A stretch of DNA of 64,000 bases. Origin: Acidimicrobiales bacterium (GTDB taxonomy: Bacteria > Actinomycetota > Acidimicrobiia > Acidimicrobiales > JACCXE01). The position numbers were made by a program, and so were the translations under genes. The notes beneath the pieces are model-generated. The model worked only from the letters and a program-made list of their open reading frames with translations, did no database searches and was not told the DNA's origin. The stretch spans positions 1 to 64,000 of the forward strand of contig DASZWD010000057.1 of NCBI GenBank assembly GCA_035546775.1, written 5' to 3'. Shown piece after piece: positions 27,151 to 58,980 of this stretch (position 1 is its first letter; every line of letters starts with the position of its first letter).

Positions 27151-28113
27151 TCAGTGACGGTGGTGATGCTGGTCCCACCACCACGTCGTCGACGTGGTGG
27201 TGGTCGCATCGTCGTAGATCGTCGTCGAGGTGGTCGGGCGGCGGTGCCACGTGGTGCTCGACGTCGTCGACGACGACGGACCGGGGTGACGTTGCCACGT
27301 CGTTGTCGTGGTCTCCGGCACGAGGACTTCGCCGGACCAGAAACTCGTCTCGGCGCGGGCGCCGGCCCACGACATTGAGATGTGCACGTGGTTGGTGTGC
27401 GGGTTGTCGCCGTCGTAGGGACGCCAGCCCTGATTGGCGTCGTACGCGCCCCAGATCTGGTGGTTCCAGATCACGTACATGATCCCCATCCGGCGGGCGA
27501 GGGCGAACGGATGGCCCTGCGCGTCAGTGGCGAAGAGCGCGTTGAGGAAGTCGTTCACCGCGGCGACGTCCGCCGCGTTGCCGACCTCCGCGCCCCAGTC
27601 AAAGGCGCGTCCTTCCTTGTGCTCGCTCTGGCCTCCGACATCGCAGCTGCGGCTGATGCCAAGGCTGCTAGTGGACGGGTATCGCGCCAGCAGCAGGTCG
27701 CGCAGCGCCACCGTCCCCGGCTTCGGCGTGGGGTCGCACGTCGACTGCGCTTCGTACCGGGCGAAACCTTCGATCTCAGTGCCGGTGTACTTCCCGACGA
27801 ACGGCGTGCCGAGGGGCAATCCCGACGGCGGCGGCTTCGGTCGGGTGTCGGTCCGGTTGGTGTCGTCCTTGCCGTCGCCCTTCGGCCGCGGCTTGACCGC
27901 GACGCGCGTCGTCGTGGGTGCAGCGGTGACGGTCGTCGTCGGAGCAGGAACCACGATGGCGGCTGCGGCGTCGGTCAGCGGGATCGTCGCGACCGGCCCG
28001 GTAGCGGCGACGGCAGGCGCCCCCAGCGTCGGTCGCTCCGAGCGCGCGGTCAATCCAACAGTGATTGAGCCTGCCGCGGCCACGACAGCGAGGAATGCAC
28101 GGGCACGCGACAT
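27151..28113 (-). CDS. Secreted M15-type peptidase with Thr/His-rich tail
   Basis: A 320-residue exported protein. Signal peptide at 1-23; a Thr/Pro linker to about residue 95; then an M15-like D-Ala-D-Ala carboxypeptidase domain with SEHKEGRAFDW (zinc His and Asp) and HTNHVHISM (second zinc His); then a Thr/Ser-rich tail ending TTWWWDQHHHRH. It probably trims peptidoglycan. The terminal His cluster may bind metal. It lies 68 bp downstream of a GlcD-like oxidase gene on the same strand, with no obvious functional link. Confidence 0.75.
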   Translation of the reverse strand: MSRARAFLAVVAAAGSITVGLTARSERPTLGAPAVAATGPVATIPLTDAAAAIVVPAPTTTVTAAPTTTRVAVKPRPKGDGKDDTNRTDTRPKPPPSGLPLGTPFVGKYTGTEIEGFARYEAQSTCDPTPKPGTVALRDLLLARYPSTSSLGISRSCDVGGQSEHKEGRAFDWGAEVGNAADVAAVNDFLNALFATDAQGHPFALARRMGIMYVIWNHQIWGAYDANQGWRPYDGDNPHTNHVHISMSWAGARAETSFWSGEVLVPETTTTTWQRHPGPSSSTTSSTTWHRRPTTSTTIYDDATTTTSTTWWWDQHHHRH

Positions 28114-42428: not shown

Positions 42429-43022
42429 ATGGTTGGTGAAGCAAACGCGCACGATCGAGCGCGCGTCGTCCGTCGTTACCTGTCCGCCCTCGACGCCGTG
42501 CGCGCCGGCCGCAGCGCCGCCAAGACCGCCGAGTCGCTGCACTTCCGCATGCATCAGATCGACACCGAGTTGCTGTCGGCCGACCCGGTCCGGCGGCTCC
42601 ACCTGACCCAGGAGCGGATCGACCTGCACGCCGAGTACCTCCGCCTGACGACGGGCGGTACCGAAATGGCCGAGCTGGAGAAGTCGTTCGTGCGCGTCGC
42701 GCGCGGCTACGGCGATCGTCACGGCATCAGCTACTCGGCGTGGCGCCAGATCGGGGTGGACGCCGACGTGCTGGCGTCGGCCGGCATCAAGCCGACGAAC
42801 AAGGTGCGTCCGGCCACGAACGGCAACGCTGCCGCGCCGGAGGAAGCGGAGCCGGCACCGGGTGCTCCGAAGAAGAAGGCCGCCGCCAAGAAGGCGCCGG
42901 CCACGAAGGCGCCGGCCACGAAGGCGCCGGTGGCGGCCAAGAAGGCATCGCCCGCCAAGAAGACCGTCAAGAAGGCGGCTGCACCCACGGCCGAACCCGA
43001 GCAAACCAACCTTCTCGCTTAG
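42429..43022 (+). CDS. Helical protein with histone-like Lys/Ala/Pro tail, function unknown
   Basis: A 197-residue protein. Residues 1-about 115 are helical and charged ([32 protein letters not shown]). Residues 125-190 are a disordered Lys/Ala/Pro repeat ([19 protein letters not shown]), resembling histone H1 or HupB tails and likely to contact nucleic acid. TAAGTT (42416-42421) lies 7 nt before the ATG (leaderless). It is first of a three-gene run ending with pheA. Confidence 0.65.
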
Positions 43023-45124: not shown

Positions 45125-45133
45125 CTCAAGCAG

Positions 45134-46120
45134 TCACGCGGCGGCGGCGCGGGATCGCCGGAGTCTGCGGCCGTAGACGAGGGCCAGGAGTCCGACGAAG
45201 AGCGCGACGAACACGAGCACGCTCAAGATGTCGGACTTCGCCTGACCTTCGGGATGCACGACCGGCCCGCTGCCCGACTTCGGGAACGTGATCGTCGCCG
45301 CCGCGTGTTCCTTCACGAGACCCGACTCGAGATCGAGGCGCGCGTGCCATGGGCCGGCGGGCAGCGCCTTGTTCAGCGTCACGAGCACAGGTTCGGTTTC
45401 GCCGACGCCGAGGGTCGTGCCCAGCTTCACGTCGAACGGACCCGCCGACAGCCCGCCCGGCCCGTTCGTCAGGCGCAATGAGCCCGACAGGTCGAGGGCG
45501 CGCCCGCCGGTGTTCTCGACGCGGGCGACGACCTGGGGCTGGCCCTTGTCGGTCCGGCGCGCCTGGATCCCGGTGACCCGGAAGCTCGACGGTGGTTCGC
45601 CACCCGGGCCCACCGAGAGATAGATGCGCACGCCGACGCGGTTGACGCTGGTGATGCTCTGCCCGGCGGTTGGCGTCGACGACACCGACGCCCACACCAC
45701 GCCGTAGCGCTCGCCCTCGCTGGCGTCCTTCGGCACCGCGATAGTGACGGTGACGAGCTTCGTCTCACCGGGCGCGTACGAGTCGGTCGAGGGCTCGACG
45801 GTCGTCCACGTGGTGAGTTCGTTGCGGGCGTGCCCGTCGCCGAAGCGGAACTCGCCGTCCTTGATCGACGCCGAGGCTGCGTAGGTGTCGATCGACTCGG
45901 TCTCGTTGGTGTTGTTCGACACGCGGACCTTGCGGCTGATCGTCGTTCCGGGCGCGACGTGGTCGACGATGTACACGCGGGCGCGCGGGTCGTTGGCGCG
46001 ATTCGTTGGCGCCTCGGCGAGTGCGATGCCGATGCTGCCTTGCGCTTGTTGCGCCTCGGCGCGAGGCATGCACGTCGCCGCCATTAACAACGTGAGGAGC
46101 GCGAACACGACGCGGCGCAT
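45134..46120 (-). CDS. DUF916-like surface protein with C-terminal membrane helix
   Basis: About 328 residues: signal peptide (VVFALLTLLMAATCMP), two beta-sandwich segments typical of WxL-associated DUF916 proteins (APGTTISRKVRVSNNTNETE; VVARVENTGGRALDLSGSLR), and a C-terminal helix (DILSVLVFVALFVGLLALVYG) with basic tail RRLRRSRAAAA. In Firmicutes, DUF916 proteins pair with WxL surface proteins; two WxL-like genes lie just upstream here on the same strand. An in-frame GTG at 46126 is an alternative start. Confidence 0.7.
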   Translation of the reverse strand: MRRVVFALLTLLMAATCMPRAEAQQAQGSIGIALAEAPTNRANDPRARVYIVDHVAPGTTISRKVRVSNNTNETESIDTYAASASIKDGEFRFGDGHARNELTTWTTVEPSTDSYAPGETKLVTVTIAVPKDASEGERYGVVWASVSSTPTAGQSITSVNRVGVRIYLSVGPGGEPPSSFRVTGIQARRTDKGQPQVVARVENTGGRALDLSGSLRLTNGPGGLSAGPFDVKLGTTLGVGETEPVLVTLNKALPAGPWHARLDLESGLVKEHAAATITFPKSGSGPVVHPEGQAKSDILSVLVFVALFVGLLALVYGRRLRRSRAAAA

Positions 46121-46129
46121 CGACACTGT

Positions 46130-46642
46130 CTACGCGATCGAGTGGGTGATGGTGCCCGAGTATGTGCCGGCGACGGCGTTGGCCGGGATGTGCACCACGA
46201 TGGTCGGGTTCCAACTGACGCTGAACGCCACCGCGCCGCTGGCGGTGAAGGCGACCGCGCCCGCAGTGAGCGGGACGGCGAGACCGGCGTTGAGTTGGCC
46301 GGGGACGTTGGTGAGCAGCACGCCGCTCGTGCTCGTCGCCGAACCCGACCAGTAGTAGATCTGCGACTTGCCGATCGTCTCGTTGGCGGTGCCGCCACCG
46401 GTGGTGAACACCGACGTGGTCACCGTCGCGGTGAACGCCAGCGTGAGCAGGTTGCCGCTGCCGGTGACGGTGCCTAACTGCGCGGACTGCGTCGAGCTAC
46501 CGACCGAGGTCGAGCCGAGGTTGGCGCTCGCCGGCACGCTGATCGACAAGGTGGCGCGGGCCGGTGGCGCGAAACCGACGATGCTGAGCGCGGCCAGCGC
46601 GCTCAGCATCGTCAGGTGAAGAGCATGACAGCGGCGGATCAC
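46130..46642 (-). CDS. WxL-like exported protein 2
   Basis: About 170 residues with a signal peptide (LTMLSALAALSIVGFAPPARA) and a beta-rich domain: LSISVPASANLGSTSVGSS, FTTGGGTANETIGKSQIYYW, and the terminal GTYSGTITHSIA. It is a paralogue of the next gene upstream (shared PASANLGS, TTGGxTANETI, TxTHS). GTG 46642 is preferred because it gives a basic start to the signal peptide; ATG 46609 is an alternative. Part of a three-gene surface operon. Confidence 0.65.
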   Translation of the reverse strand: MIRRCHALHLTMLSALAALSIVGFAPPARATLSISVPASANLGSTSVGSSTQSAQLGTVTGSGNLLTLAFTATVTTSVFTTGGGTANETIGKSQIYYWSGSATSTSGVLLTNVPGQLNAGLAVPLTAGAVAFTASGAVAFSVSWNPTIVVHIPANAVAGTYSGTITHSIA

Positions 46643-46662
46643 CGTCGCCCATGTTCGTCCGG

Positions 46663-47229
46663 TCAGGCGACCGAGTGCGTGACGGTTCCCGTGTAATCGC
46701 CGGCGACGGCCGCGGCCGGCACGTTCACGATGAGTGTCGGGTTCCACGTGACTGAGTTGTTACCGACGACCACAGTGGCGGAGAACGCGGTGCGGGACGC
46801 GCTGAGCGCCACCTTGTTGGCCGACAGCAGCTGGCCCGGGGTGAAGGTGCCGACACCCGACGACGCCGTCGCCGCGCCCGACCAGTAGTCGATCACGGAC
46901 TTGCTGATCGTCTCGTTCGCGGTCGCGCCGCCGGTCGTGAAGTCGGTGCTGCTCACGCTGCCGGTCCAGGAACCGAGGAGCGCCCCGCGCCCGTCGGAGA
47001 TGGTGATGGCGCCGAGCTGGGCGGACGTGGAGGCTGAACCCGTCGCTACAGAGCCGAGGTTCGCACTGGCCGGGGCAGTAATCGCGAGGCTGCCGGCGGT
47101 GAGAGTGAACGTCGTCGTCGTGTCGCCGCTCGTCGCCGCGTAGGCGGGGGAAGCGAGGGCTGCAGCGCACGCCAGGGCCAGTGCCCCAATTGCCGCGGTC
47201 GCGGCGCGCATGCGGTTTGACATGTTCAT
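46663..47229 (-). CDS. WxL-like exported protein 1
   Basis: A 188-residue protein: signal peptide (AATAAIGALALACAAALASPAYA), beta domain with ITAPASANLGSVATGSAS, GSWTGSVSSTDFTTGG (resembling the W-x-L-x-SxTDF pattern) and end GDYTGTVTHSVA. Probably a cell-wall or surface-binding protein. It is the first gene of the operon and its ATG lies 2 nt beyond a candidate switching hairpin (47232-47268). Confidence 0.68.
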   Translation of the reverse strand: MNMSNRMRAATAAIGALALACAAALASPAYAATSGDTTTTFTLTAGSLAITAPASANLGSVATGSASTSAQLGAITISDGRGALLGSWTGSVSSTDFTTGGATANETISKSVIDYWSGAATASSGVGTFTPGQLLSANKVALSASRTAFSATVVVGNNSVTWNPTLIVNVPAAAVAGDYTGTVTHSVA

Positions 47230-47231
47230 GG

Positions 47232-47268
47232 ATGGCCCATCGTCCTTTGGGACTAGGGCCATTAGTCC
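47232..47268 (-). promoter_or_regulatory. Candidate structured leader with two mutually exclusive hairpins
   Basis: Hairpin A pairs GGACTA (47250-47255) with TAGTCC (47263-47268). Hairpin B pairs ATGGCCC (47232-47238) with GGGCCAT (47256-47262), with an inner GTCC/GGAC stem (47242-47245, 47250-47253). They share 47250-47262 and so cannot coexist. B ends 2 nt before the ATG (47229) and would cover the ribosome site; A would leave it open. The pattern fits a translational switch or attenuator. No known riboswitch class is matched by eye. Confidence 0.5.
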
Positions 47269-47361
47269 ATTACGAAAAATTGGGATTTCGTTGATATTTG
47301 GTATGGCGCGGTGTCGGTCGTAACCGCCCCTCCCGGCGATGACCAACGGCTCTACCGGTCA

Positions 47362-47384
47362 CTCGGGGTGTGGCCCACCCTGAG
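47362..47384. promoter_or_regulatory. Inverted repeat upstream of drrA-like gene
   Basis: CTCGGGGTG, 5 nt, CACCCTGAG: 9-bp arms with one G-T pair, in the 183-bp gap between the WxL-like gene and the ABC ATPase gene (28 bp before its start). Could be an operator or a leader hairpin. Confidence 0.45.
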
Positions 47385-47412
47385 AAACGGTTGCACGGTG
47401 TGAGGAGGAACG

Positions 47413-48462
47413 TTGTCCCGTTCGACGCGCGAGGCGGTGGTTGTCGAAACGACGGGCGCCGACGCGGCCGACGCCGACACACCGTCCCCGCCGATCGTCG
47501 TGGTGGCGAACCTCACGAAGCAATTCGACGGCTTCGAGGCGGTGAAGGACGTGAGCTTCGAGGTCCAACCCGGCCAGGTGTTCGCGTTCCTCGGGCCAAA
47601 CGGCGCCGGGAAGTCGACCACCATCAACATGCTGTGCACGCTGGCGCGACCGACGAGTGGGACCGCCACGGTCGCCGGTTTCGACGTGGCCACGCAAGCG
47701 AAGCAGGTGCGGCGACGCATCGGTCTGGTATTCCAAGAGCAGACACTCGACGATCAGCTGACGGCCGAGGAGAACCTGCGCTTCCACGCCGTCCTCTACG
47801 ACGTGCCCCGCAGCGAGGTCAGTTCACGAATCCGCGGCGTGCTGGAACTGGTCGACCTGGCCGATCGCCGCCGCGACCTTGTGTCGACGTTCTCGGGTGG
47901 CATGGCGCGGCGCCTCGAGATCGCTCGCGCCCTGCTGCACACGCCGCGGGTGCTGTTCTTGGACGAGCCGACGCTTGGTCTCGACCCGCAAACCCGGGCG
48001 CTCATGTGGGCCGACGTGCTGCGCCTGCGCGACGAAGAGGGCGTCACGGTGTTTCTCACGACCCACTACATGGACGAGGCCGAGTACGCCGACCGCATCG
48101 CCATCATCGACCACGGGCAGATCGTCGCCCTCGACACGCCCGACAACCTGAAGGCTCTCGTGGGTGCCGACACCGTCACGATCGTCACGGGCGACGACAA
48201 CGTGGCGCAACGCGCCCTCGCCGCCGCCGGTTACCGCGTGCGACAGACGCCGGACGGCATCGTCGCCTTCGTCGACGACGGCGAGTCCGCCGTCGTCGGT
48301 CTCCTCGCCGCGGCCTCGGTGCCAGTACGCCAGGTGCACGTCCACCGGCCCACCCTCGACGACGTGTTCCTCCACTTCACCGGTCGGGCCATCCGCGAGC
48401 AGTCCGGCGACAACCATGCGATGGGCCGCATGGCGCGGGCGCGGTTCGGGCACCACCGGTAG
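47413..48462 (+). CDS. ABC exporter ATP-binding protein (DrrA family)
   Basis: A 349-residue single ABC domain: Walker A GPNGAGKST, signature FSGGMARRLEIARAL, Walker B VLFLDEPTLGLDP, plus the C-terminal DrrA-type domain ending HRPTLDDVFLHFTGRAIRE. It powers export of a hydrophobic compound. It starts at TTG 47413, supported by AGGAGG 5 nt upstream. The permease gene follows 8 bp downstream. Confidence 0.92.
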   Translation: MSRSTREAVVVETTGADAADADTPSPPIVVVANLTKQFDGFEAVKDVSFEVQPGQVFAFLGPNGAGKSTTINMLCTLARPTSGTATVAGFDVATQAKQVRRRIGLVFQEQTLDDQLTAEENLRFHAVLYDVPRSEVSSRIRGVLELVDLADRRRDLVSTFSGGMARRLEIARALLHTPRVLFLDEPTLGLDPQTRALMWADVLRLRDEEGVTVFLTTHYMDEAEYADRIAIIDHGQIVALDTPDNLKALVGADTVTIVTGDDNVAQRALAAAGYRVRQTPDGIVAFVDDGESAVVGLLAAASVPVRQVHVHRPTLDDVFLHFTGRAIREQSGDNHAMGRMARARFGHHR

Positions 48463-48470
48463 GAGCGGCC

Positions 48471-49334
48471 ATGACGACCGTCCCCTCCCGCCCCTCGGAG
48501 CGACTGGCGTCGCGCGAGCCCGGCCTGCCCCACGAACTTCGGACCGCCGCCATGGTCTGGCAACGTGAGTTGCTCCGCTTCGCCCGCACCCGGATCCGCA
48601 TCCTCACCGGGTTCACCCAGCCGATCCTGTTCCTGTTCGTTCTCGGCTACGGGATCAGCCCACTCGTCGGTACCACCGGCGGCTTCGACTTCAAGAAGTT
48701 CGTGTTCCCCGGCGTCGTCGCGATGAGCGTCGTCAGTACCGCCATCTTCGGTGCCATGTCCATCGTGTGGGACAGGGAGTTCGGGTTCATGCGCGAGATG
48801 CTCGTCGCCCCCGCAAGCCGCGCCGCCCTCGTCGTCGGCAAGGCTGCTGGCGGCGCGACCGTCGCCACGCTCCAGGGCACCGTCATGCTCGCCCTCGCTC
48901 CCGCCATCGGCGTCCACCTCACCGTCCTGCTCGTGCTGAAAGTGGTCGCGCTCTGCCTACTGATGGCGGTCGCCCTCACTTCCTTCGGCGTGTTCCTCGC
49001 CAGCCGCATCGATCACATGGAGAGCTTCGGCGTCGTCGTGCAACTGGTGCTGTTCCCCATGCTGTTCCTCTCAGGCGCCATGTTCCCGCTCAGCGGCCTG
49101 CCGGCCTGGCTCAGCGTGCTCACCCGGGTCAATCCCCTCACCTACGCCGTCGATCCCCTCCGCCGCACCGTGTTCGCCGCCCAGAACCTGCCGCCCGCCG
49201 CGCGCGCCCGATTCCCCACTGGGGTCGAGTTGTTCGGGCACACGCTCGGGACTGCGTCAGAACTCGCCATCGTCGCGGGCATCGCCGCGGTCTTCCTCAC
49301 TCTGTCGGTGCGCGCGTTCGGCCGGCCATCGTGA
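48471..49334 (+). CDS. ABC-2 type permease (DrrB family)
   Basis: A 287-residue permease with six membrane segments; TQPILFLFVLGYGIS, AMSIVWDREFGFMREMLVAP and LPAWLSVLTRVNPLTYAVDPLR are the typical ABC-2 motifs. It forms an exporter with the preceding ATPase; the cargo is unknown. The stop overlaps the GTG of the universal stress protein gene (GTGA). Confidence 0.92.
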   Translation: MTTVPSRPSERLASREPGLPHELRTAAMVWQRELLRFARTRIRILTGFTQPILFLFVLGYGISPLVGTTGGFDFKKFVFPGVVAMSVVSTAIFGAMSIVWDREFGFMREMLVAPASRAALVVGKAAGGATVATLQGTVMLALAPAIGVHLTVLLVLKVVALCLLMAVALTSFGVFLASRIDHMESFGVVVQLVLFPMLFLSGAMFPLSGLPAWLSVLTRVNPLTYAVDPLRRTVFAAQNLPPAARARFPTGVELFGHTLGTASELAIVAGIAAVFLTLSVRAFGRPS

Positions 49335-49780
49335 CCGCCAACGAGAAAACAGCGATCGTCGTCGGAGTCGACGGCTCTGACAACGGTCGCCGGGCCATGG
49401 CGTGGGCCCTCGACGAAGCCAAAGCGCGCGGGCTGTCGTGTCTATTGGTCCACGCGGTGGACTTCGGATTCGCGGCTGCGAGCCCCTACGCAGGCGTCAC
49501 GTTCGACCAGTTGCGCGACGCAGGCCAGGCGGTACTCGACACCGAGCTGGCGATCGCTCGCGACGCCGGCGTGCCCGTCGAGGGCCGTCTCGTGATCAGC
49601 TCGGCGGCGCAGGCGCTCATCGATGCATCCCGAGACGCGGCGCTGCTCGTTGTCGGCAGCCGCGGCCGGGGCGGCTTCACCGGCATGCTGCTCGGATCCG
49701 TGTCGACCGCGTGTGTGCACCACGCGCACTGCCCGGTTGTCGTGATGCGTCCACCAGAACCCGAAACCACGAAGAACTGA
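49331..49780 (+). CDS. Universal stress protein (UspA family)
   Basis: A 149-residue USP with IVVGVDGSDNGRRAMAWAL and the ATP-binding GSRGRGGFTGMLLGSVS motif followed by HCPVVVM. USPs of this type bind ATP and act in dormancy or hypoxia. The GTG at 49331 overlaps the DrrB stop; its end overlaps the next frame. Confidence 0.92.
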   Translation: MTANEKTAIVVGVDGSDNGRRAMAWALDEAKARGLSCLLVHAVDFGFAAASPYAGVTFDQLRDAGQAVLDTELAIARDAGVPVEGRLVISSAAQALIDASRDAALLVVGSRGRGGFTGMLLGSVSTACVHHAHCPVVVMRPPEPETTKN

Positions 49781-50787
49781 AACGGCGCCATTACACCACC
49801 GCCCTGAGGGTCGTCGTTCTCGGCCTCGGTGTGTATCTGCTGTTGCCGCGCGTCGCCGGTCTGCGTGACGCGCTCGACAGCCTTGTCCGTCTTCAGTGGT
49901 GGCTCGTTCCCGTTCTCGTCGGGCTCGAGGCCGCCAGCCTCGCCCTGTACGCCGAACTGGCACGCGCGGTGTTCGGTATGGAGGGAGTCGCACCCACACG
50001 GCGACTGCTCGTGCTCGCAGTTCTGGCGGGCACGGCGCTCGGCAAGGTATTGCCGGGCGGCACCGTCGCGGCGCTGCCGCCGACGGTCGGGATCTTGCGC
50101 CGTGAGCACCTCGATCCGGCGCTCTCGGCGACGGCGCTGTTGGCTAGCGGGGTCCTGTCGTCGCTGGTCCTCGTCGTCGCGCTCCCGGTCGTTTCGGCGG
50201 CGTCGGTTCTCGCCGGCGGAGGCGGCGCGGCTGCGCTCGGCCTCGGTGGCGTCGTCCTGGCGATCGGCGTCCTTGCCGGTCTCGGCTGGCTAGGCGTCCG
50301 CGACCCCGACCTTGGCCACTACCTGTCGGCGCGGCTGAACGGGTTGGTGCGCGGGCAACGGTTACGCGCGTGGTTGCACGTCGAGGACGCCGCCGCCGGA
50401 CTCGAACGCGCGGCCGTCGCGCTCCAAGCCGTCGCCAGCAACGGGCGGGGTATGGCGCGTGCGGCCGGACTCGCGCTCGCCAGTTGGGCGTGCGACCTCG
50501 GAGTCATCGCCGCGCTCGCCCTTGCCGTGACGCGAGGCGCGCCCCTCGCGGGCGTCGCCCTCGCCTACGTCGTCGGCCAACTCGCCGCCGCGCTTCCTTT
50601 GACGCCCGGTGGCATCGGTGTGGTCGAAACCGCCATGATCGGCGCCCTTGCGACACAAGGCATGCCCGCTGGCGAGGCGGCGGCCGTCGTGCTCACCTGG
50701 CGGCTCGTAAGCCACTGGCTCCCGATGCTGGTCGGCCTCGTCGTTTACGCGTCCGTCCGCCCTGTCTCGAACGCCGCGCGACCGTGA
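49777..50787 (+). CDS. LPG-synthase TM-region/UPF0104 family membrane protein
   Basis: About 336 residues, seven or more membrane helices, with the LPLTPGGIGVVETA motif diagnostic of the lysylphosphatidylglycerol synthase transmembrane/UPF0104 flippase family. It may move lipid or glycolipid across the membrane. The start is unclear: the frame opens at CTG 49777 overlapping the USP TGA, and the nearest in-frame GTG either cuts into the first helix (49831) or overlaps the USP gene. Confidence 0.72.
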   Translation: MKRRHYTTALRVVVLGLGVYLLLPRVAGLRDALDSLVRLQWWLVPVLVGLEAASLALYAELARAVFGMEGVAPTRRLLVLAVLAGTALGKVLPGGTVAALPPTVGILRREHLDPALSATALLASGVLSSLVLVVALPVVSAASVLAGGGGAAALGLGGVVLAIGVLAGLGWLGVRDPDLGHYLSARLNGLVRGQRLRAWLHVEDAAAGLERAAVALQAVASNGRGMARAAGLALASWACDLGVIAALALAVTRGAPLAGVALAYVVGQLAAALPLTPGGIGVVETAMIGALATQGMPAGEAAAVVLTWRLVSHWLPMLVGLVVYASVRPVSNAARP

Positions 50788-50798
50788 TCACCGGACAA

Positions 50799-50812
50799 GG
50801 GTCCTTTGCCCC
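50799..50812. promoter_or_regulatory. DosR/DevR-box-like site
   Basis: GGGTC-CTTT-GCCCC matches the DosR half-site layout GGGAC-N4-GTCCC at eight of ten positions. It is 57 bp before the DUF1918 gene, next to universal-stress and CBS proteins, which are common DosR regulon members. Confidence 0.4.
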
Positions 50813-50869
50813 TACCCCGACGGCGTTCGCGCGCACGACGATGGCGTCACAAGCGATTGGAGAAAGACC

Positions 50870-51070
50870 ATGCAAGCAAGCGTCGGCGATCGCATCGTGA
50901 TCCAAGGGCACCGTGTCGGAGAGCCCGAACGCGATTGCGAAGTCCTCGAAGTCCATGGACCCGATGGTCACGCGCCCTTCCTCGTCCGTTGGGGCGACAC
51001 GGGTCACGAGTCGTTGTTCTTCCCCGGCTCGGACGCCACGGTCCAACACTTCGAACACGCCCGAGCCTGA
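50870..51070 (+). CDS. DUF1918 protein
   Basis: A 66-residue SH3-like protein: GDRIVIQGHRVGEPERDCEV and FLVRWGDTGHESLFFPGSDA are the DUF1918 signature. Actinobacterial genes of this family are often induced with stress or dormancy genes. GGAG lies 7 nt before the ATG. A DosR-like box lies 57 bp upstream. Confidence 0.88.
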   Translation: MQASVGDRIVIQGHRVGEPERDCEVLEVHGPDGHAPFLVRWGDTGHESLFFPGSDATVQHFEHARA

Positions 51071-51083
51071 AGGAAACCTGCCA

Positions 51084-51530
51084 ATGCAAACCATCGACGC
51101 ACTGCGCCGCTCGAGTGTCGGCATCCGACCGGAGCAAACCATCCGTGAAGCGGCGGTTCTCATGGACAAAGCCGGAGTCGGTTCCATCGCCGTCATCGAC
51201 GGCGCGAACTTGGTTGGGATCGTTACTGACCGCGATCTCGTTCGCCGCGCCTTGGCGCGCGGCCTGCCCGACGACGCGCGCGTCGACGCGGTGATGTCGT
51301 CGCCGGTCGTCACCGTGCCGGCGGACTCCGAGCTGCACGACGTCTTCGCCGTGTTCCGCACCCATGCCGTACGTCGCCTCGCAGTGGTCCGCGGCGCGGC
51401 GTTCCAAGGGATGATCTCGATCGACGACCTGCTGCTCGACCTGTCCGCGGATCTTGCCGACCTGGCCCGACCCGTCACGGCCGAAGTGTTGTTCAGCCAC
51501 CACGACAACCCGGTGCCCGCCACCACCTGA
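51084..51530 (+). CDS. CBS-domain protein (Hrp1-like)
   Basis: A 148-residue protein with two CBS motifs (IREAAVLMDKAGVGSIAVIDGA; ELHDVFAVFRTHAVRRLAVVRG), similar in build to mycobacterial Hrp1 of the DosR regulon. It may bind an adenine nucleotide. AAGGAAA precedes the ATG. Follows DUF1918 by 13 bp, so they are co-transcribed. Confidence 0.85.
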   Translation: MQTIDALRRSSVGIRPEQTIREAAVLMDKAGVGSIAVIDGANLVGIVTDRDLVRRALARGLPDDARVDAVMSSPVVTVPADSELHDVFAVFRTHAVRRLAVVRGAAFQGMISIDDLLLDLSADLADLARPVTAEVLFSHHDNPVPATT

Positions 51531-51626
51531 CCGGCGCATCCCCGTTTTCGGCCGCTCGGGAATCACGACCGAACCGCTACTGACGACCGCAGTTCGGGAG
51601 TGTGGCGACTAACCTCGGCGTCTTCG

Positions 51627-51718
51627 GGAGAGGTGCGAGAGCGGCCGAATCGGACTCACTGCTAATGAGTTGACCTGGGAAACTGGGTCCGAGGGTTCAA
51701 ATCCCTCCCTCTCCGCCA
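51627..51718 (+). tRNA. tRNA-Ser (GCU anticodon)
   Basis: Class II tRNA of 89 nt plus encoded CCA. GGAGAGG (51627-51633) pairs with CCTCTCC (51708-51714), discriminator G51715, CCA 51716-51718. Anticodon loop CTGCTAA gives GCT; T-arm GAGGG-TTCAAAT-CCCTC. No other gene lies in 51531-51626. Confidence 0.95.
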
Positions 51719-51834
51719 AACCAACTCGCTCGGTCGAGGTTTGATGCCGAGTTCTGGCCGCCATTTCGCGTCTACGACGCGGTTTGGCGACCAAGACGTG
51801 GCACAGAAGTCCGATTCGTCGGTAACCCGCCATA

Positions 51835-51933
51835 CTCAGCCAGAGTCGTTGCTGAGAATCTTCTCAGGCTTAGCCACCGTAGGAATTCAGCAAACCGCCG
51901 TTCCTTGAGTCTGACGAGCAGAGTCGTTGCTCG
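51835..51933 (+). promoter_or_regulatory. Leader with two hairpins sharing one loop sequence
   Basis: Hairpin 1: CTCAGC (51835-51840) with GCTGAG (51851-51856), loop CAGAGTCGTT. Hairpin 2: CGAGC (51915-51919) with GCTCG (51929-51933), loop AGAGTCGTT. The loops are identical over nine bases while the outer stem base pairs differ; the shared 13-mer CAGAGTCGTTGCT recurs at 51841 and 51919. Hairpin 1 also competes with CTGAGAA/TTCTCAG (51852-51867). Hairpin 2 ends just before the ribosome site of the 1751-residue protein. Confidence 0.5.
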
Positions 51934-51947
51934 CGAAAGGGGAAACG

Positions 51948-54900
51948 GTGGGGCAATTTCGCAGGCGCGCGCTTCGGTCGCGCGTTCTTCTCGTACTAAC
52001 CGCGGTGTGCACGCTGGCGACCTTCGTCGCCAGCCCGGAAAGCGCCCGCGCGGCGCTGCCGAGTCTGCCGCCCGCGCCGACGGTGACGCCGTTGAAGGAC
52101 TCCAAGGGTGTGCCCGGCGTCCTCAATCTCTCCGGCGGTTTGCAGCAGACGACGAGCGCGGTCGGTCAGGTCGTTTCGGCAGTGCAGGCGCTGGGCGTCG
52201 CACTCCAGGGGACGACCGCTCCTGACGTGCAGTCACAGGTGGCAGCGCTCCAGGCGTCCGTCGCTCAGGTGCAAGCCGACATCGCCGCGCTCGACACCGG
52301 CGCGGCGCAGGCTGACCTGATGGCGGCGGTCTCGTCGATCGAGGGCCAGGTTCTGGCGCTTGGCTTGACGACGGGTCTCACCTCAGGCCTGTCGATCGCG
52401 CAGGACGTGCTGTCGCCGGTGTGCGCGCTCACGGCTGTTCCCACCTCGTTCGTGCCGGGCCTCGGCGCCGACCTGTCGCGCACCTACAAGCTGGCGTCGC
52501 CGACGATCCAGCAAACCGACGCCAAGACCGACGCGTTGATCAAGCAGGTCTATGACACCGTCTACAACGAGGTGCTGGCGCTCTTGGGTGCCAACGCCAC
52601 GACGGCGGCTGTGCCGGCCCTGCTGCAGTTGCTCCAGTTCAACTGGACGACGACGTATCAGGCGCCCGACGGCACCCGCATCACCAAGACGGCCCCGGGC
52701 CTCATCAACCTGCCGACGCCGATCGACGTCGACAACAGCGGCACGTTCGACGTGTGCGCCATGGCGAGCTACGCCCTCGATCCGAGTGGCGCCGTCGTGA
52801 TGAAGGAAACGATCACCAAGATGCCGCTGGCCAAGGCGACGCTGCCGCTGAGCATCGACGCCGGCCTGCTCGCCAACGTGCTGCACGTCGGTTACGACAC
52901 CACGACCCAGCCCGCCTTCGACACCGACGCGTCCGCGGCTGACAACTCCGCTTCGACCGCGCCCGTGTCGTACACGGCGACCACCACGTACGCCTCGAGC
53001 GGTACCAAGTTCGACACGGCGGTCGCGGTGCACCGCGGTACGACGCTCACCTTGCCGCCGGTGGACTTCAACCCGCTGCCGGCGTTGCCGACGATCCCGC
53101 CGCTCACCGAACCGGCGCCCACGCCAAAGCTCACGCAGAACTTCTGCCTGCTGGCGTGCACGACACTGGATCTGACCAACCGCTACGACAACGAGCCGAA
53201 CACCATGCACGTCACGACCGTGACGCCGTCGGCGAGCGCGGAGAACCTGCGCTACACCGGCGACGCCAAGGGCGATCTCTACAGCCTCAACTATGCGGTG
53301 CTGGGCGGCTTGTCGACCGTCGTGAGCAAGGCCGCTCCCGCTCCCGGCACCTTGTCGTACTGCGCCAGCGCCACGACGGGCGCCTGCGCTTCGTCGCCGC
53401 ACAGCTCGACGGACAAGGGTTCGCTGCTCCTCAGCAGCAACCTCCCGATCCACTTCGACAACTACGCCAAGTCCGGCGGGACACCGAACACCACGTGTAC
53501 GGCCCGCGCCGCGGACGTCCACGTCGACGGCACTCGCCTGGCGCTGAGCAACGCGCCCATCGCGGGCAGCAATCCCGGCAAGGTGTTCGTCGACACCGCC
53601 GGAAAGCCGCTGTCGGGCTGCGTCGGTTACGCCGCGTCGGTAACCGGCATCCCCGCCGGTTCGTTCCCCGGTGGTTTCGCGGCCAGCGGACGAGACTCGA
53701 CGTATCACGCGTCCGGTTCCACCCAGATCCCCGACGCCAAAGCCGGCGCGGTCACGTGTCCCGACACCACTGCGTTCACGCTCGGCGCGGCCACCGCGTT
53801 GACGCCCGTCGTCTGTCCGGTGCTCCCGACGCTGACGGGGGGCCCGACGATCTCGGGTGACCCCATCGCGGAGTCGCCGCTGGCGGCGACGAGCACGTGG
53901 TCGCCGGTGGCGGATTCGCCGACGGTGGCCAACTCGCCCACCCTCAACTACCAGTGGCTGCGCTGCGACGAGACCGGCGCCATCTGCGGGCCCGTTAGCG
54001 GCGCCACCAACGCCGTGTACCTACCGGTGTACGGCGACGGCCCCGGCGGCACGACCACCGACATCGGTCACGCGTTCCGCGTGGTCGTGACGGGCACCAA
54101 CCTCGACGGATCGTTCACCTCGCTGGCTTCGCCGGCGACGGCGCCGGTCGTCGATCAGAGTGCGGCGCCGACGAACACCGTCCTGCCCACGATCACGGGC
54201 GTGGCCGGTACGGGCCACACCCTGACCGCACACAGCTCGAAGAGCACGGACTGGACCGGCGGCATCAGCAGCGCGCTGGCCTACCAGTGGCAGAAGTGTG
54301 ACGCGAGCGGAACGCCGGCGTCGTGCGCCGACATCGCCGGGGCCACTGACTCCACCTACAACGTGGCGTATCCGACCGACCTCGACTCGACCATCCAGGT
54401 CGTGGTCACCGCGACGAACCACATCGGTTCGACGCCGGCCACGAGTGCGCAGCAGCGCATCCAGCCGGCGCCGATCAACACCGTCGTGGGCGTCATCCAG
54501 CGCTGCATCAACAGCGCGTGCTCTGTCTCGTCGGACATTCCGGCGGGCTCGGCACCCTTCACCGGTGACAAGTTGAAGGTCACCGACGGGACGTGGCAGG
54601 CCGGTACCGAAACGGCGCTGGCGTATCAGTGGATGCGCTGCGACGCCGACGGCACCAACTGCGCCAACATCGACGGTGCCACCACCAACCGGTACACCGT
54701 CAGCAAGGCCAACGACCTCGGCAAGACGCTCAAGGTCGACATCACCGGTACCAACGACAACCGGGACGACACGAACGCCCCGGTGAAGACGACCGTCACA
54801 ACGGCGCTCACCGCGGTGGTCACGCCGGCCAAGCCCGCCGTCCAGATCGCATCGGCGGTCGACGGCGCCGTCAACTCGGTCGCCACGAGCGGCCACGACA

Positions 54901-57203
54901 CCACTTACCTCGGCGGTAGCTTCGACACCGCCGGTCCCGCGGCAGGCGGTGCCGGTGCCGAGGTTCTCACCGCCGGCTCGACGCAGGGTTCGGTCGTGAA
55001 CGGCGCCGGAATCACCGGCGGCGTGGTCAAGGCCATCACGTCGGACCTCACCGGTGGCTACTTCATCGGTGGCACCTTCGACAAGGTGCAGGGCCAGTCG
55101 TGTGTTGCCTTCGCTCACATCACCTCGGCGGGCGCGCTCGACAACACATATTGCAACCTCGGCGGCATCACCGGTGAGGTGCGGGCCGTGGCGGTCGCGA
55201 GCACTTCGTACGCCGTCACCACTGCCGACACGGTGTACCGCGTCGCGGTCGGCGGTCTCTTCAACGCCGGCGGCCATCACAACTTCATGTACGTCAACAC
55301 CACGACGAAGGACCTGACCTTCGAATCGGCGGGCGACCCGAACGGTGCGGTCAACGTGATCACGCCGCACGGTGCGATCTTCGCCGTCAACCTGGCCTCC
55401 GTGACCCAGCAGGGCAAGGTGTACTTCGGTGGCGACTTCACCAAGCTCGGCAACACGGTGGTCGCCAACCACATCGCCCGCGACAACTGGGGCGGTAGCA
55501 CGGCGGCGCCCACGATCACCTATGACGCCGCCTTCGTGCCGCAGGTCTGCACCGGTGCTCCGGTGTCGGGCGAGTGCGCCACGGCCTCGGTGAAGACCAT
55601 CGCCCTGGCGGCGCAAAGCACGCTGCTCACCCTCCCCGTCTCGGCGCCGGCGTTCATCATGGTCGGCGGTTCCTTCGACGGTGCCTACAAGGCGACCGAC
55701 GCTCCGTCGGCCCGCGGTAACGCCGCAGCGTTCAGCACCACGGCACCCGGTGCGCCGACGACGTGGAACCCGAACACCAACGGGCCCGTCAACGCCATCG
55801 GTCTCGGCTACGGCGGATCGGCGAGCATTCCCTACGCCGTGTTCCTCGGCGGCTCGTTCACCCATGCAGGTGCGGCGTCGCCGGGCGGAGTGGACGTCAC
55901 CAACGCCGTCGCCTACGGCATCACCAGCACGGGTGCGACCTCGACCGCCCCGGCGACTCAGATGAACGGCGCGCCGTCCACGTCGTGGAAGCCGTCGCTC
56001 GACGGGCCCGTCTACGCCATCAGCGCCGGCCCGGCCGCGAGCTCGTACATCGCTCTCGGTGGGTCGTTCAAGAACGCCGAAGGCGCAGCCCGCAACCGCA
56101 TCGCCCTGTACCTCAACCAGACGAGCGCGGCCACCGCAGGTCCAACGCTGCAACCGCTGACGGCGCACGCCGGCAACGACGTGTACGCCCTCGGCCGCGA
56201 CGCTTCGAGTCGGCTGCTCGCCGGCGGCGCGTTCAAGGTCCTCGGCGGCGCCGTCCGCAAGAACGTCGCCGAGATCAGCCAGGCCAGCGGCGTCACCAGC
56301 TGGACGGCGAACACCGACGGCCCGGTTACGGCTGTCGGCGCCAACAGCGACACCGTGTACCTGGCCGGCTCGTTCAGCGCCGTCAACAACACGGCCCGCA
56401 ACGGACTCGCCGGGGTGAAGCAGGCTGACAGCACCGTCACCGGATTCACGCCGAGCCTCAGCCCGGGAGGGGTTGTCAACGTCCTCACAGCCAGCGACGA
56501 CGCCGTCTACGCCGGTGGCAACTTCACCGGCATCGGTGGCTCGGCGCGCAACAGCCTCGCCCAGCTCGATCCGGCAACCGGCAACGCCACCTCGTGGAAC
56601 AGCGGCGGCGTAACCGGCAACGCGGGAACGGTAACGGCGATCGTGCTCGACGGCAGCAACGTCCTCGTCGGTGGATCGTTCACCAACACTGGCGGCGCGA
56701 CCCGCAACAACGCTGCTGCCATCAACACCGCCGGTGCCGCCACGGGATGGGACCCGAGTCCTGACGGTGCGGTGAACGCCATCGCCGTCGACCCGGACAA
56801 CACCCACAGCATCTTCCTCGGGGGTGCCTTCGCCAACGTGGGTGGCGCAGCACGCACCAACGTCGCCAACGTGGACGACACTGCTGGCAACGCGACGGCG
56901 TGGCACGTCGACACCGACGGTCCGGTGAACGCGCTGCTCGTGTTCTCGTCGAACCTGTATCTCGCCGGTGGCTTCAACACGACGGGCGGCAACGCCTACG
57001 GGTCGCTGTCGGGCGTCGACGCCAACACCGGCGAGGTGCTCGACTGGCAGCCCACGCCGAGCGGCCTCATCCGCAGCATGGCGCTGACGACCAGCGGTCT
57101 GATTGCTCTCGGAGGCGACTTCGTGACGTTCAACCCGCCGGTCACCGGCACCAACCCGAATCCGGTGTTCACCTACCGGCCGGGATTTGCCCTGCTCGGC
57201 TAA
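51948..57203 (+). CDS. Giant secreted Ig-like/beta-propeller surface protein
   Basis: A 1751-residue exported protein. Signal peptide (residues 4-33), then a long helical/beta N-terminal region to about 620; three Ig-like repeats at about 625-960, each with a YQWxxCD motif (DNA near 53950, 54283, 54627) and paired cysteines; then a long run of DUF5122-type propeller repeats to the end, each with a GGSF/GGAF/GGNF motif (about fourteen are seen). It has no C-terminal anchor, so it is released or held by other proteins. GTG 51948 is chosen over TTG 51927 because AAAGGGG precedes it by 6 nt. Likely an adhesin or matrix protein. Confidence 0.75.
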   Translation: MGQFRRRALRSRVLLVLTAVCTLATFVASPESARAALPSLPPAPTVTPLKDSKGVPGVLNLSGGLQQTTSAVGQVVSAVQALGVALQGTTAPDVQSQVAALQASVAQVQADIAALDTGAAQADLMAAVSSIEGQVLALGLTTGLTSGLSIAQDVLSPVCALTAVPTSFVPGLGADLSRTYKLASPTIQQTDAKTDALIKQVYDTVYNEVLALLGANATTAAVPALLQLLQFNWTTTYQAPDGTRITKTAPGLINLPTPIDVDNSGTFDVCAMASYALDPSGAVVMKETITKMPLAKATLPLSIDAGLLANVLHVGYDTTTQPAFDTDASAADNSASTAPVSYTATTTYASSGTKFDTAVAVHRGTTLTLPPVDFNPLPALPTIPPLTEPAPTPKLTQNFCLLACTTLDLTNRYDNEPNTMHVTTVTPSASAENLRYTGDAKGDLYSLNYAVLGGLSTVVSKAAPAPGTLSYCASATTGACASSPHSSTDKGSLLLSSNLPIHFDNYAKSGGTPNTTCTARAADVHVDGTRLALSNAPIAGSNPGKVFVDTAGKPLSGCVGYAASVTGIPAGSFPGGFAASGRDSTYHASGSTQIPDAKAGAVTCPDTTAFTLGAATALTPVVCPVLPTLTGGPTISGDPIAESPLAATSTWSPVADSPTVANSPTLNYQWLRCDETGAICGPVSGATNAVYLPVYGDGPGGTTTDIGHAFRVVVTGTNLDGSFTSLASPATAPVVDQSAAPTNTVLPTITGVAGTGHTLTAHSSKSTDWTGGISSALAYQWQKCDASGTPASCADIAGATDSTYNVAYPTDLDSTIQVVVTATNHIGSTPATSAQQRIQPAPINTVVGVIQRCINSACSVSSDIPAGSAPFTGDKLKVTDGTWQAGTETALAYQWMRCDADGTNCANIDGATTNRYTVSKANDLGKTLKVDITGTNDNRDDTNAPVKTTVTTALTAVVTPAKPAVQIASAVDGAVNSVATSGHDTTYLGGSFDTAGPAAGGAGAEVLTAGSTQGSVVNGAGITGGVVKAITSDLTGGYFIGGTFDKVQGQSCVAFAHITSAGALDNTYCNLGGITGEVRAVAVASTSYAVTTADTVYRVAVGGLFNAGGHHNFMYVNTTTKDLTFESAGDPNGAVNVITPHGAIFAVNLASVTQQGKVYFGGDFTKLGNTVVANHIARDNWGGSTAAPTITYDAAFVPQVCTGAPVSGECATASVKTIALAAQSTLLTLPVSAPAFIMVGGSFDGAYKATDAPSARGNAAAFSTTAPGAPTTWNPNTNGPVNAIGLGYGGSASIPYAVFLGGSFTHAGAASPGGVDVTNAVAYGITSTGATSTAPATQMNGAPSTSWKPSLDGPVYAISAGPAASSYIALGGSFKNAEGAARNRIALYLNQTSAATAGPTLQPLTAHAGNDVYALGRDASSRLLAGGAFKVLGGAVRKNVAEISQASGVTSWTANTDGPVTAVGANSDTVYLAGSFSAVNNTARNGLAGVKQADSTVTGFTPSLSPGGVVNVLTASDDAVYAGGNFTGIGGSARNSLAQLDPATGNATSWNSGGVTGNAGTVTAIVLDGSNVLVGGSFTNTGGATRNNAAAINTAGAATGWDPSPDGAVNAIAVDPDNTHSIFLGGAFANVGGAARTNVANVDDTAGNATAWHVDTDGPVNALLVFSSNLYLAGGFNTTGGNAYGSLSGVDANTGEVLDWQPTPSGLIRSMALTTSGLIALGGDFVTFNPPVTGTNPNPVFTYRPGFALLG

Positions 57204-58306
57204 CGGCTCGTCGTCGTCGAGTTCACGGAGGACCCCGCCCGCGCCGGGCGGGGTCCTCTGCTGCTCGGACCATCGAGCGGACGGATCGACATGGTGAGGA
57301 CGAACGCGTCGTCGGCGAGCACGAGACCACCACCCTGGCTCTCGGCGAGGCCGCGGGCGATTGGAAGACCGAGACCTGAGCCCCCGCGGTCGTCGAGGGT
57401 GGCGAACCGCTCGAAGATGCGATCGCGCATCGCGGGAGCAACACCGGGCCCGTCGTCGGTGATCGTCATCGTGAGCGTGTGATCGGCGACGTCCACGACC
57501 AGTTCGATACGGGTGCGGGCGAAGCGGCGGGCGTTGTCGAGCACGTTTTGCAGCGCTTCGGCTGCTGCTTCAGGACTGATCGCCACGAGCTCCGGGACGG
57601 CGTCGCCCACCTCGTAGTCCACGGAGATCAACGGGTTGAGGGCGCGCGTACGCTCGACTTCGTCGGCGACGAGGGCGCGCACATCGGTCGGCATCGTCGG
57701 CAGGACTTCGCCTTGATCCAGGCGGGCCATCCGCAACAGGCCGGTGACGAGGCGGCCACAGCGGGCTGCATCTGACGCGATCCGTTGCAACAGTCGAGCC
57801 GCCTTCGGGTCGACGCCCTCGAGTACGAGCGCATCGCTGGCGGCGCGCACGCTCGCGATTGGCGTGCGCAGCTGATGCGCCGCAAACGCGAGGAACTGCT
57901 GGCTGCGCTGATCTGACGTGCGGGCGCGGTCGAGCACCGAACGAAACCCGGCGATGAGAGCGACGACGATCATCAGCATGGCGGCGCGCATGGCCCCGTT
58001 GGCGATGTGCACGTCGACGCTCGTGTCGTGGCGACGCACGAGGTCGGCCGCAAGCCCGACGACCGCCGTCTCGGCCACCATCACCATGCCGCATCCCGTG
58101 CCGACGAGCACGACGCCGACCGCCACCGGCAGGAGGTACACGGCGCCGAGCGTGAGGTCGGCGCCCGTGCTGACGTCGACGACACCGATGACCGCCACGA
58201 CCACGCTGCACACGGCCCCGATCGCCAGCGCGCGACCGCGCGTTGGCCGCGGCTCCAGCAGCAACTGGTGGAACCACTGCGTCACGCGCGGGCGGATCGA
58301 CGTCAT
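57200..58306 (-). CDS. Sensor histidine kinase of OmpR-type system
   Basis: A 368-residue kinase. About four membrane segments (residues 25-120), H-box FAAHQLRTPIASV with H144 as phospho-acceptor (Gln in place of the usual Glu), N-box LQNVLDNARRFA, G-boxes DDGPGVA and GSGLGLPIARGL. The stimulus is not evident; the sensor region is mostly inside the membrane. It overlaps the regulator gene by 4 bp. Its 3' end overlaps the adhesin stop by 4 bp and carries a terminator hairpin in its last codons. Confidence 0.9.
   Translation of the reverse strand: MTSIRPRVTQWFHQLLLEPRPTRGRALAIGAVCSVVVAVIGVVDVSTGADLTLGAVYLLPVAVGVVLVGTGCGMVMVAETAVVGLAADLVRRHDTSVDVHIANGAMRAAMLMIVVALIAGFRSVLDRARTSDQRSQQFLAFAAHQLRTPIASVRAASDALVLEGVDPKAARLLQRIASDAARCGRLVTGLLRMARLDQGEVLPTMPTDVRALVADEVERTRALNPLISVDYEVGDAVPELVAISPEAAAEALQNVLDNARRFARTRIELVVDVADHTLTMTITDDGPGVAPAMRDRIFERFATLDDRGGSGLGLPIARGLAESQGGGLVLADDAFVLTMSIRPLDGPSSRGPRPARAGSSVNSTTTSR
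57228..57258. terminator. Strong hairpin terminator within the kinase 3' end
   Basis: GAGGACCCCGCCC (57228-57240) pairs perfectly with GGGCGGGGTCCTC (57246-57258) around a 5-nt loop. It lies 25 nt after the stop of the giant protein, serving as its terminator, but is inside the coding sequence of the convergent kinase (C-terminal Arg/Pro/Ser tail). No T-run. Confidence 0.65.
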
Positions 58307-58980
58307 ACCTGCAGCACGTAGCCCTCACCGCGCACCGTGTGGATCAACCGGGAGCCACAACGCTCGAGTTTGCGCCGGAGCGTGCTGATGTAGACCTCGA
58401 CGAGATTGGGGTCGTACTCGTCGTAGCGCCAGACGAGCGACAACAGTTCTTGTTTCGAGAAGACGCGTCCGGGTGCACGCGCAAACACGCACAGCAGACC
58501 GAACTCGGTCGGTGTGAGGTCGATCGCGTTGTCGCGGCGCGTCGCGACACGTGCCGCTTCGTCGATGGTGACGTCCCCGGCCCTGATAACGGCCGACGCG
58601 AACCGTTCGTTCCGCCGCAGGATGGCCCGCAACCGAGCGAGAAGTTCGGCCATGGCGAACGGCTTCACGAGGTAGTCGTCGGCCCCAGTGTCGAATCCCC
58701 GCAGGCGGTCGTCGACGCCGTCGAGCGCGGAGAGAAACATCACCGGCACCGTCGAGACGTTGCGAATGCGGGACGCGACCTCGAAACCGTTCGCGCCCGG
58801 CAGCAGGATGTCGAGGATTACCGCGTCCGGCCCGAACGCCGCCACGACCGATTCCGCCGCGCTGCCGTCGCTTTCCGCCTGTACGTCGAAGCCGCAGGCG
58901 CCGAGTGCGGCGGCGACGCTCTCCCGCAGGCTGTCGTCGTCCTCCACGAGCAGGACCCGTGCCGCCCGGTCGTCTGCCAT
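58303..58980 (-). CDS. OmpR-family response regulator
   Basis: A 225-residue regulator: receiver domain with phospho-acceptor D57 (VILDILLPG), a winged-helix Trans_reg_C output domain (LTPTEFGLLCVFARAPGRVFSKQ; VEVYISTLRRKLE). TAACCT lies 6 nt before the ATG, a leaderless start (58987-58992). It pairs with the kinase through an ATGA overlap. Targets might include the convergent adhesin, inferred from proximity only. Confidence 0.93.
   Translation of the reverse strand: MADDRAARVLLVEDDDSLRESVAAALGACGFDVQAESDGSAAESVVAAFGPDAVILDILLPGANGFEVASRIRNVSTVPVMFLSALDGVDDRLRGFDTGADDYLVKPFAMAELLARLRAILRRNERFASAVIRAGDVTIDEAARVATRRDNAIDLTPTEFGLLCVFARAPGRVFSKQELLSLVWRYDEYDPNLVEVYISTLRRKLERCGSRLIHTVRGEGYVLQV

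Follow-up and report, generated by a model that had tools for sequence, protein, structure and literature searches.

A repeated 13-nucleotide motif and a predicted start-site hairpin in the leader of a gene for a 1751-residue protein

We analysed the leader of a gene for a 1751-residue protein in a 64,000 nt stretch of DNA (hereafter, the window). The reading that we prefer, at a probability of about 0.45, is that of a secreted-protein gene specific to the lineage, with a structured 5′ leader of an ordinary kind in which a repeated 13-mer and one of two short hairpins, H1, constitute a small repeat without proven paired action. The stable element would be a single long hairpin with the other short hairpin, H2, on top, the lower stem of which would engage the GTG start in base pairs, together with a portion of the Shine–Dalgarno (SD) sequence, and, judging from folding only, would cause a passive drop in translation initiation. 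The repeated 13-mer and H1 would most simply have arisen through coincidence or old local duplication. The analysis does not demonstrate a dedicated RNA switch, and any effect of the leader on expression is one that we infer.

The gene lies at positions 51948–57203 of the forward strand, with an SD-like AAAGGGG at 51936–51942. Its 1751-residue product carries a signal peptide, an Ig-like (AIR9/SCAB) region near residues 870–950 and Rax2/DUF5122 beta-propeller repeats close to the C-terminus, with no obvious C-terminal anchor. The preliminary description had named it a giant surface protein; the surface location is unproven.

Upstream of this gene, the exact 13 nt repeat CAGAGTCGTTGCT is found in two copies in the window, at 51841–51853 and 51919–51931 of the forward strand, and the 9-mer AGAGTCGTT at 51842–51850 and 51920–51928 has no further site in the 64 kb. 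The loop is thus presented twice at a spacing of 78 bp, as first described. Folding placed the two copies on 6 bp hairpins of the same strand, H1 at 51835–51856 with the arms CTCAGC and GCTGAG (51835–51840 with 51851–51856) and one additional C (51841) between the 5′ arm and the loop, and H2 at 51915–51933 with the arms CGAGCA and TGCTCG (51915–51920 with 51928–51933). The H2 stem takes in positions 51920 and 51928, and the unpaired H2 loop is therefore GAGTCGT or smaller. From the loop outward, the two stems have the pairs C-G, G-C and A-T in common, with an additional A-T pair inside these in H2, while the next positions outward are occupied by C51837-G51854 and T51836-A51855 in H1 and, respectively, by G51916-C51932 and C51915-G51933 in H2. 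Two outer pairs were changed on both sides with pairing kept in both hairpins, in agreement with the earlier observation that the outer pairs differ and still pair, and the arrangement is that of one loop on two tandem stems (13-mer at 51841 and 51919, two compensated pairs). The claim of selection on structure plus loop has these two compensated base pairs, seen in two sequences, as its basis. The 3′ end of H2 lies 2 nt 5′ of AAAGGGG, confirming that one hairpin adjoins the ribosome site. A larger ancient tandem duplication was rejected, as the flanks of the copies gave no alignment outside the perfect 13-mer.

Next to these sequence features, the predicted fold of the leader set the two hairpins apart. 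The whole leader was not more stable than its shuffles (z of −0.2 for 201 nt and −1.0 for 160 nt). H2 had a probability of approximately 0.98 in the leader ensemble and, together with the start-site stem, approximately 0.98–1.0 in all full transcripts tested. In this long stem below H2 (51895–51951, forward strand; 51895–51906 with 51937–51951), the start codon is base-paired, as is a portion of the SD sequence. In contrast, H1 formed with a probability of 0.87–0.98 when the transcript ended at 51858, but of approximately 0.01 after the transcript reached 51868 or further, and of 0.1 with the 5′ end at 51830. An alternative hairpin, CTGAGA/TCTCAG at 51852–51867 of the forward strand, recruits the 3′ arm of H1 and cannot coexist with H1, which is thus a transient structure only, ousted by other pairings in longer RNA. 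Two hairpins stable together were not found in the full leader (0.01–0.1 for H1 versus approximately 0.98 for H2), and of the leader RNA with two hairpins proposed at the outset, H2 is retained, whereas H1 falls outside the predicted fold.

Of 200 shuffles, 199 were less stable than the local start-site stem (z of −2.5). Compared across 57 gene starts of the window, whose assignment was approximate, the start region ranked 14th in stability, and 12 of these 57 required at least as much energy to open, indicating that the start-site structure is ordinary for a window of 68.5% GC. H2 on the start-site stem is plausible as an ordinary translational damper on the predicted fold. Hairpins of 5′ UTRs that occlude the ribosome site form a general class, which the present leader resembles in its stable stem covering the start codon and a portion of the SD sequence; it differs from them in that no ligand, partner or response to temperature is known, with a start-site structure within the range of the window.

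The chance expectation for the repeat-plus-stem pair varied with the null model, namely, Markov copies of the whole window or shuffles of the leader only. In order-3 Markov copies of the GC-rich window, comparable pairs, defined by a repeat length of 12 nt or more and by 5 bp or more in each stem, numbered approximately 0.35 per 64 kb; the window itself contains three, at 27183, 29534 and 51841. The GC content of the leader is 55%, against 68.5% for the window. When this AT-richer leader alone was shuffled, a 13-mer repeat was obtained in 11 of 100,000 shuffles; when the repeat was kept constant, 14 of 20,000 shuffles had 6 bp or more in both stems. These figures must be read with the fact that the pair was picked by a reader who had scanned much sequence. 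Within its own leader the pair stands out, though less so when the search through many windows is allowed for.

In the host genome (3.75 Mb, 97.5% complete), the 13-mer pattern had no further copy at up to one mismatch, and looser matches remained at the level of a reversed-pattern control. There is no further intergenic copy of the motif and, therefore, no sign of a regulon. The four other sites of AGAGTCGTT in the genome are all inside coding frames, and there is therefore no intergenic locus for a small RNA with perfect complementarity to the loop; an antisense RNA with the complementary 9-mer was rejected on this ground. Outside the host, searching 257 Gb of genomes with the paired-motif pattern returned 16 matches from unrelated groups, many within repeated sequence, with no recognisable relative of the leader among them. 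A tandem repeat on a Polyangium contig contains the hairpin GGGGGT-AGAGTCGTTGCG-ACCCCC, with the loop letters of the leader, which is apparently a coincidence inside a tandem array.

No DNA homologue of the leader was detected by BLAST in 99 relatives, and a leader covariance model, which consisted of one sequence entered twice and was in essence a sequence search, matched only itself in 298 genomes of the order. The N-terminal 517 residues of the protein had no credible homologue in these 298 genomes, where the sole match (34% identity) was interrupted by stop codons, or in 396 genomes of the phylum, where only the own genome was matched; no relatives of the 1751-residue protein were confirmed in genome contigs. 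The search for covarying homologues thus recovered neither a leader nor a protein N-terminus homologous to the present ones from the 99–396 genomes covered per query, a result that takes away support for the RNA-pair reading and refutes nothing. On these sequence comparisons, the leader region looks lineage-specific. A literature search found nothing useful.

Among known systems, the target leaders of CsrA/RsmE, a translational regulator that binds repeated GGA loops in leaders, are similar in that one loop is shown twice, with one copy adjoining the SD sequence; however, the loop here is GAGUCGU, no GGA was read in the hairpin loops, and there is no genome-wide family of such loops. The leader also resembles T-box and other Rfam cis-regulatory families in being structured and located 3′ of a tRNA gene, but no Rfam cis-regulatory family, and hence no covariance model of a known riboswitch or leader, matched at 50500–52500 at E values up to 10. 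In the Rfam scan of this interval, only the tRNA and a plastid 3′ UTR model overlapping it on the opposite strand scored well. The latter, RF04351 (plastid psbL-rps4 3′ UTR), gave 43 bits, under its cut-off, at 51662–51715 of the minus strand, antisense of tRNA-Ser, which suggests the presence of an antisense tRNA within the model itself.

The repeated loop may mark paired sites, in RNA or in DNA, or be a coincidence. H1 formed during transcription and H2 at the ribosome site might be two RNA recognition sites, at which a protein or small RNA would bind the shared GAGUCGU loop and control translation of the costly protein. The identical loop and closing pair, the two compensated outer pairs, the position of H2 beside the SD sequence and the formation of H1 at the transcript end of 51858 all agree with such a pair, and a constant spacer between variable arms is the expectation for loop display. 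Nevertheless, we consider it unlikely: the loss of H1 at equilibrium in the longer RNA, as modelled, speaks against two stable RNA sites; neither a further intergenic copy nor a candidate antisense RNA perfectly matching the loop was present in the genome; and homologues were not found in the relatives searched. Between the tRNA gene and the 1751-residue gene (51700–51950), the TANNNT −10 element is absent, and no sigma-70-type match or clear promoter was found in the interval before the gene. As guesses from the sequence, a weak CATACT at 51831 would place the RNA start near 51843, within H1, and a weak TAGGAA at 51880 would place it near 51892, past H1. Quite improbable is a lineage-restricted element of translational control that serves as a timed switch for the large secreted protein, in which H1, formed co-transcriptionally, and H2, at the ribosome site, would show one loop to one trans-acting factor and H1 would later be displaced.

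Rather unlikely, too, is a pair of asymmetric 13 bp DNA sites for a transcription factor, upstream of and overlapping the transcription start region. The exact repeat is intergenic and upstream of the gene, and a two-component regulator gene lies at 57200–58980, convergent with the 1751-residue gene; however, the dyad arms and their spacing differ (AGC to GCT, 10 versus 9 nt) around a constant middle, unlike a dimer operator, 78 bp corresponds to approximately 7.4 turns and not to the same face, other intergenic copies are absent, and the stems are left unexplained. A constant centre with varying arms fits a loop displayed in RNA better than it fits a dimer operator. For the ordinary leader, we counted the firm H2 and stem, the loss of H1, the absence of an Rfam match, a second intergenic copy or homologues, the similarity of the whole leader to its shuffles, and the similar pairs at 27183 and 29534. 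Against it, we counted the rarity of the 13-mer repeat and paired stems in leader shuffles and the perfect 13-mer within unalignable flanks, a poor fit to neutral old duplication. The proposal that the loop pair serves binding or sensor control finds partial support: it keeps its repeat, compensated pairs and SD-adjacent hairpin, but is weakened by the loss of H1 and the lack of any sign of a regulon.

The upstream neighbour of the leader is tRNA-Ser (GCT), at 51627–51718 of the forward strand. Between the two lies a 61 bp dispersed palindrome (51744–51804) with 17 copies in the genome, approximately TGGCSGCCA-N3-CGCGTC-N3-GACGCG-N3-TGGCSGCCA within GCC...GGC outer arms. Matches in the relatives searched were close to noise level, and 9 of the 15 other loci inspected sit between convergent genes, as judged from open frames. 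The copies conserve sequence, with no covariation evidence for RNA structure, and no Y1 (RAYT-type) transposase was found in the genome; the family is REP-like or bidirectional-terminator-like. In one congener compared, two tRNA-Ser genes approximately 165 nt apart are followed by a different gene, whereas in the window tRNA-Ser(TGA) and tRNA-Ser(GCT) are 6.5 kb apart (45126–51626) and are followed by the large gene, suggesting from this comparison a tRNA-flanked variable region. This interval contains ABC transporter, LPG-synthase-like and CBS-domain genes. A tandem array with the 15 nt unit GAAGGCGCCGGCCAC lies at 42890–42930.

The leader pattern comes from a single genome and includes one stable hairpin, which gives no basis to generalise. 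The 17-copy palindrome family just upstream is a more solid discovery than the leader pair. A real pair would add a further orphan leader element, here one governing a costly exported protein.
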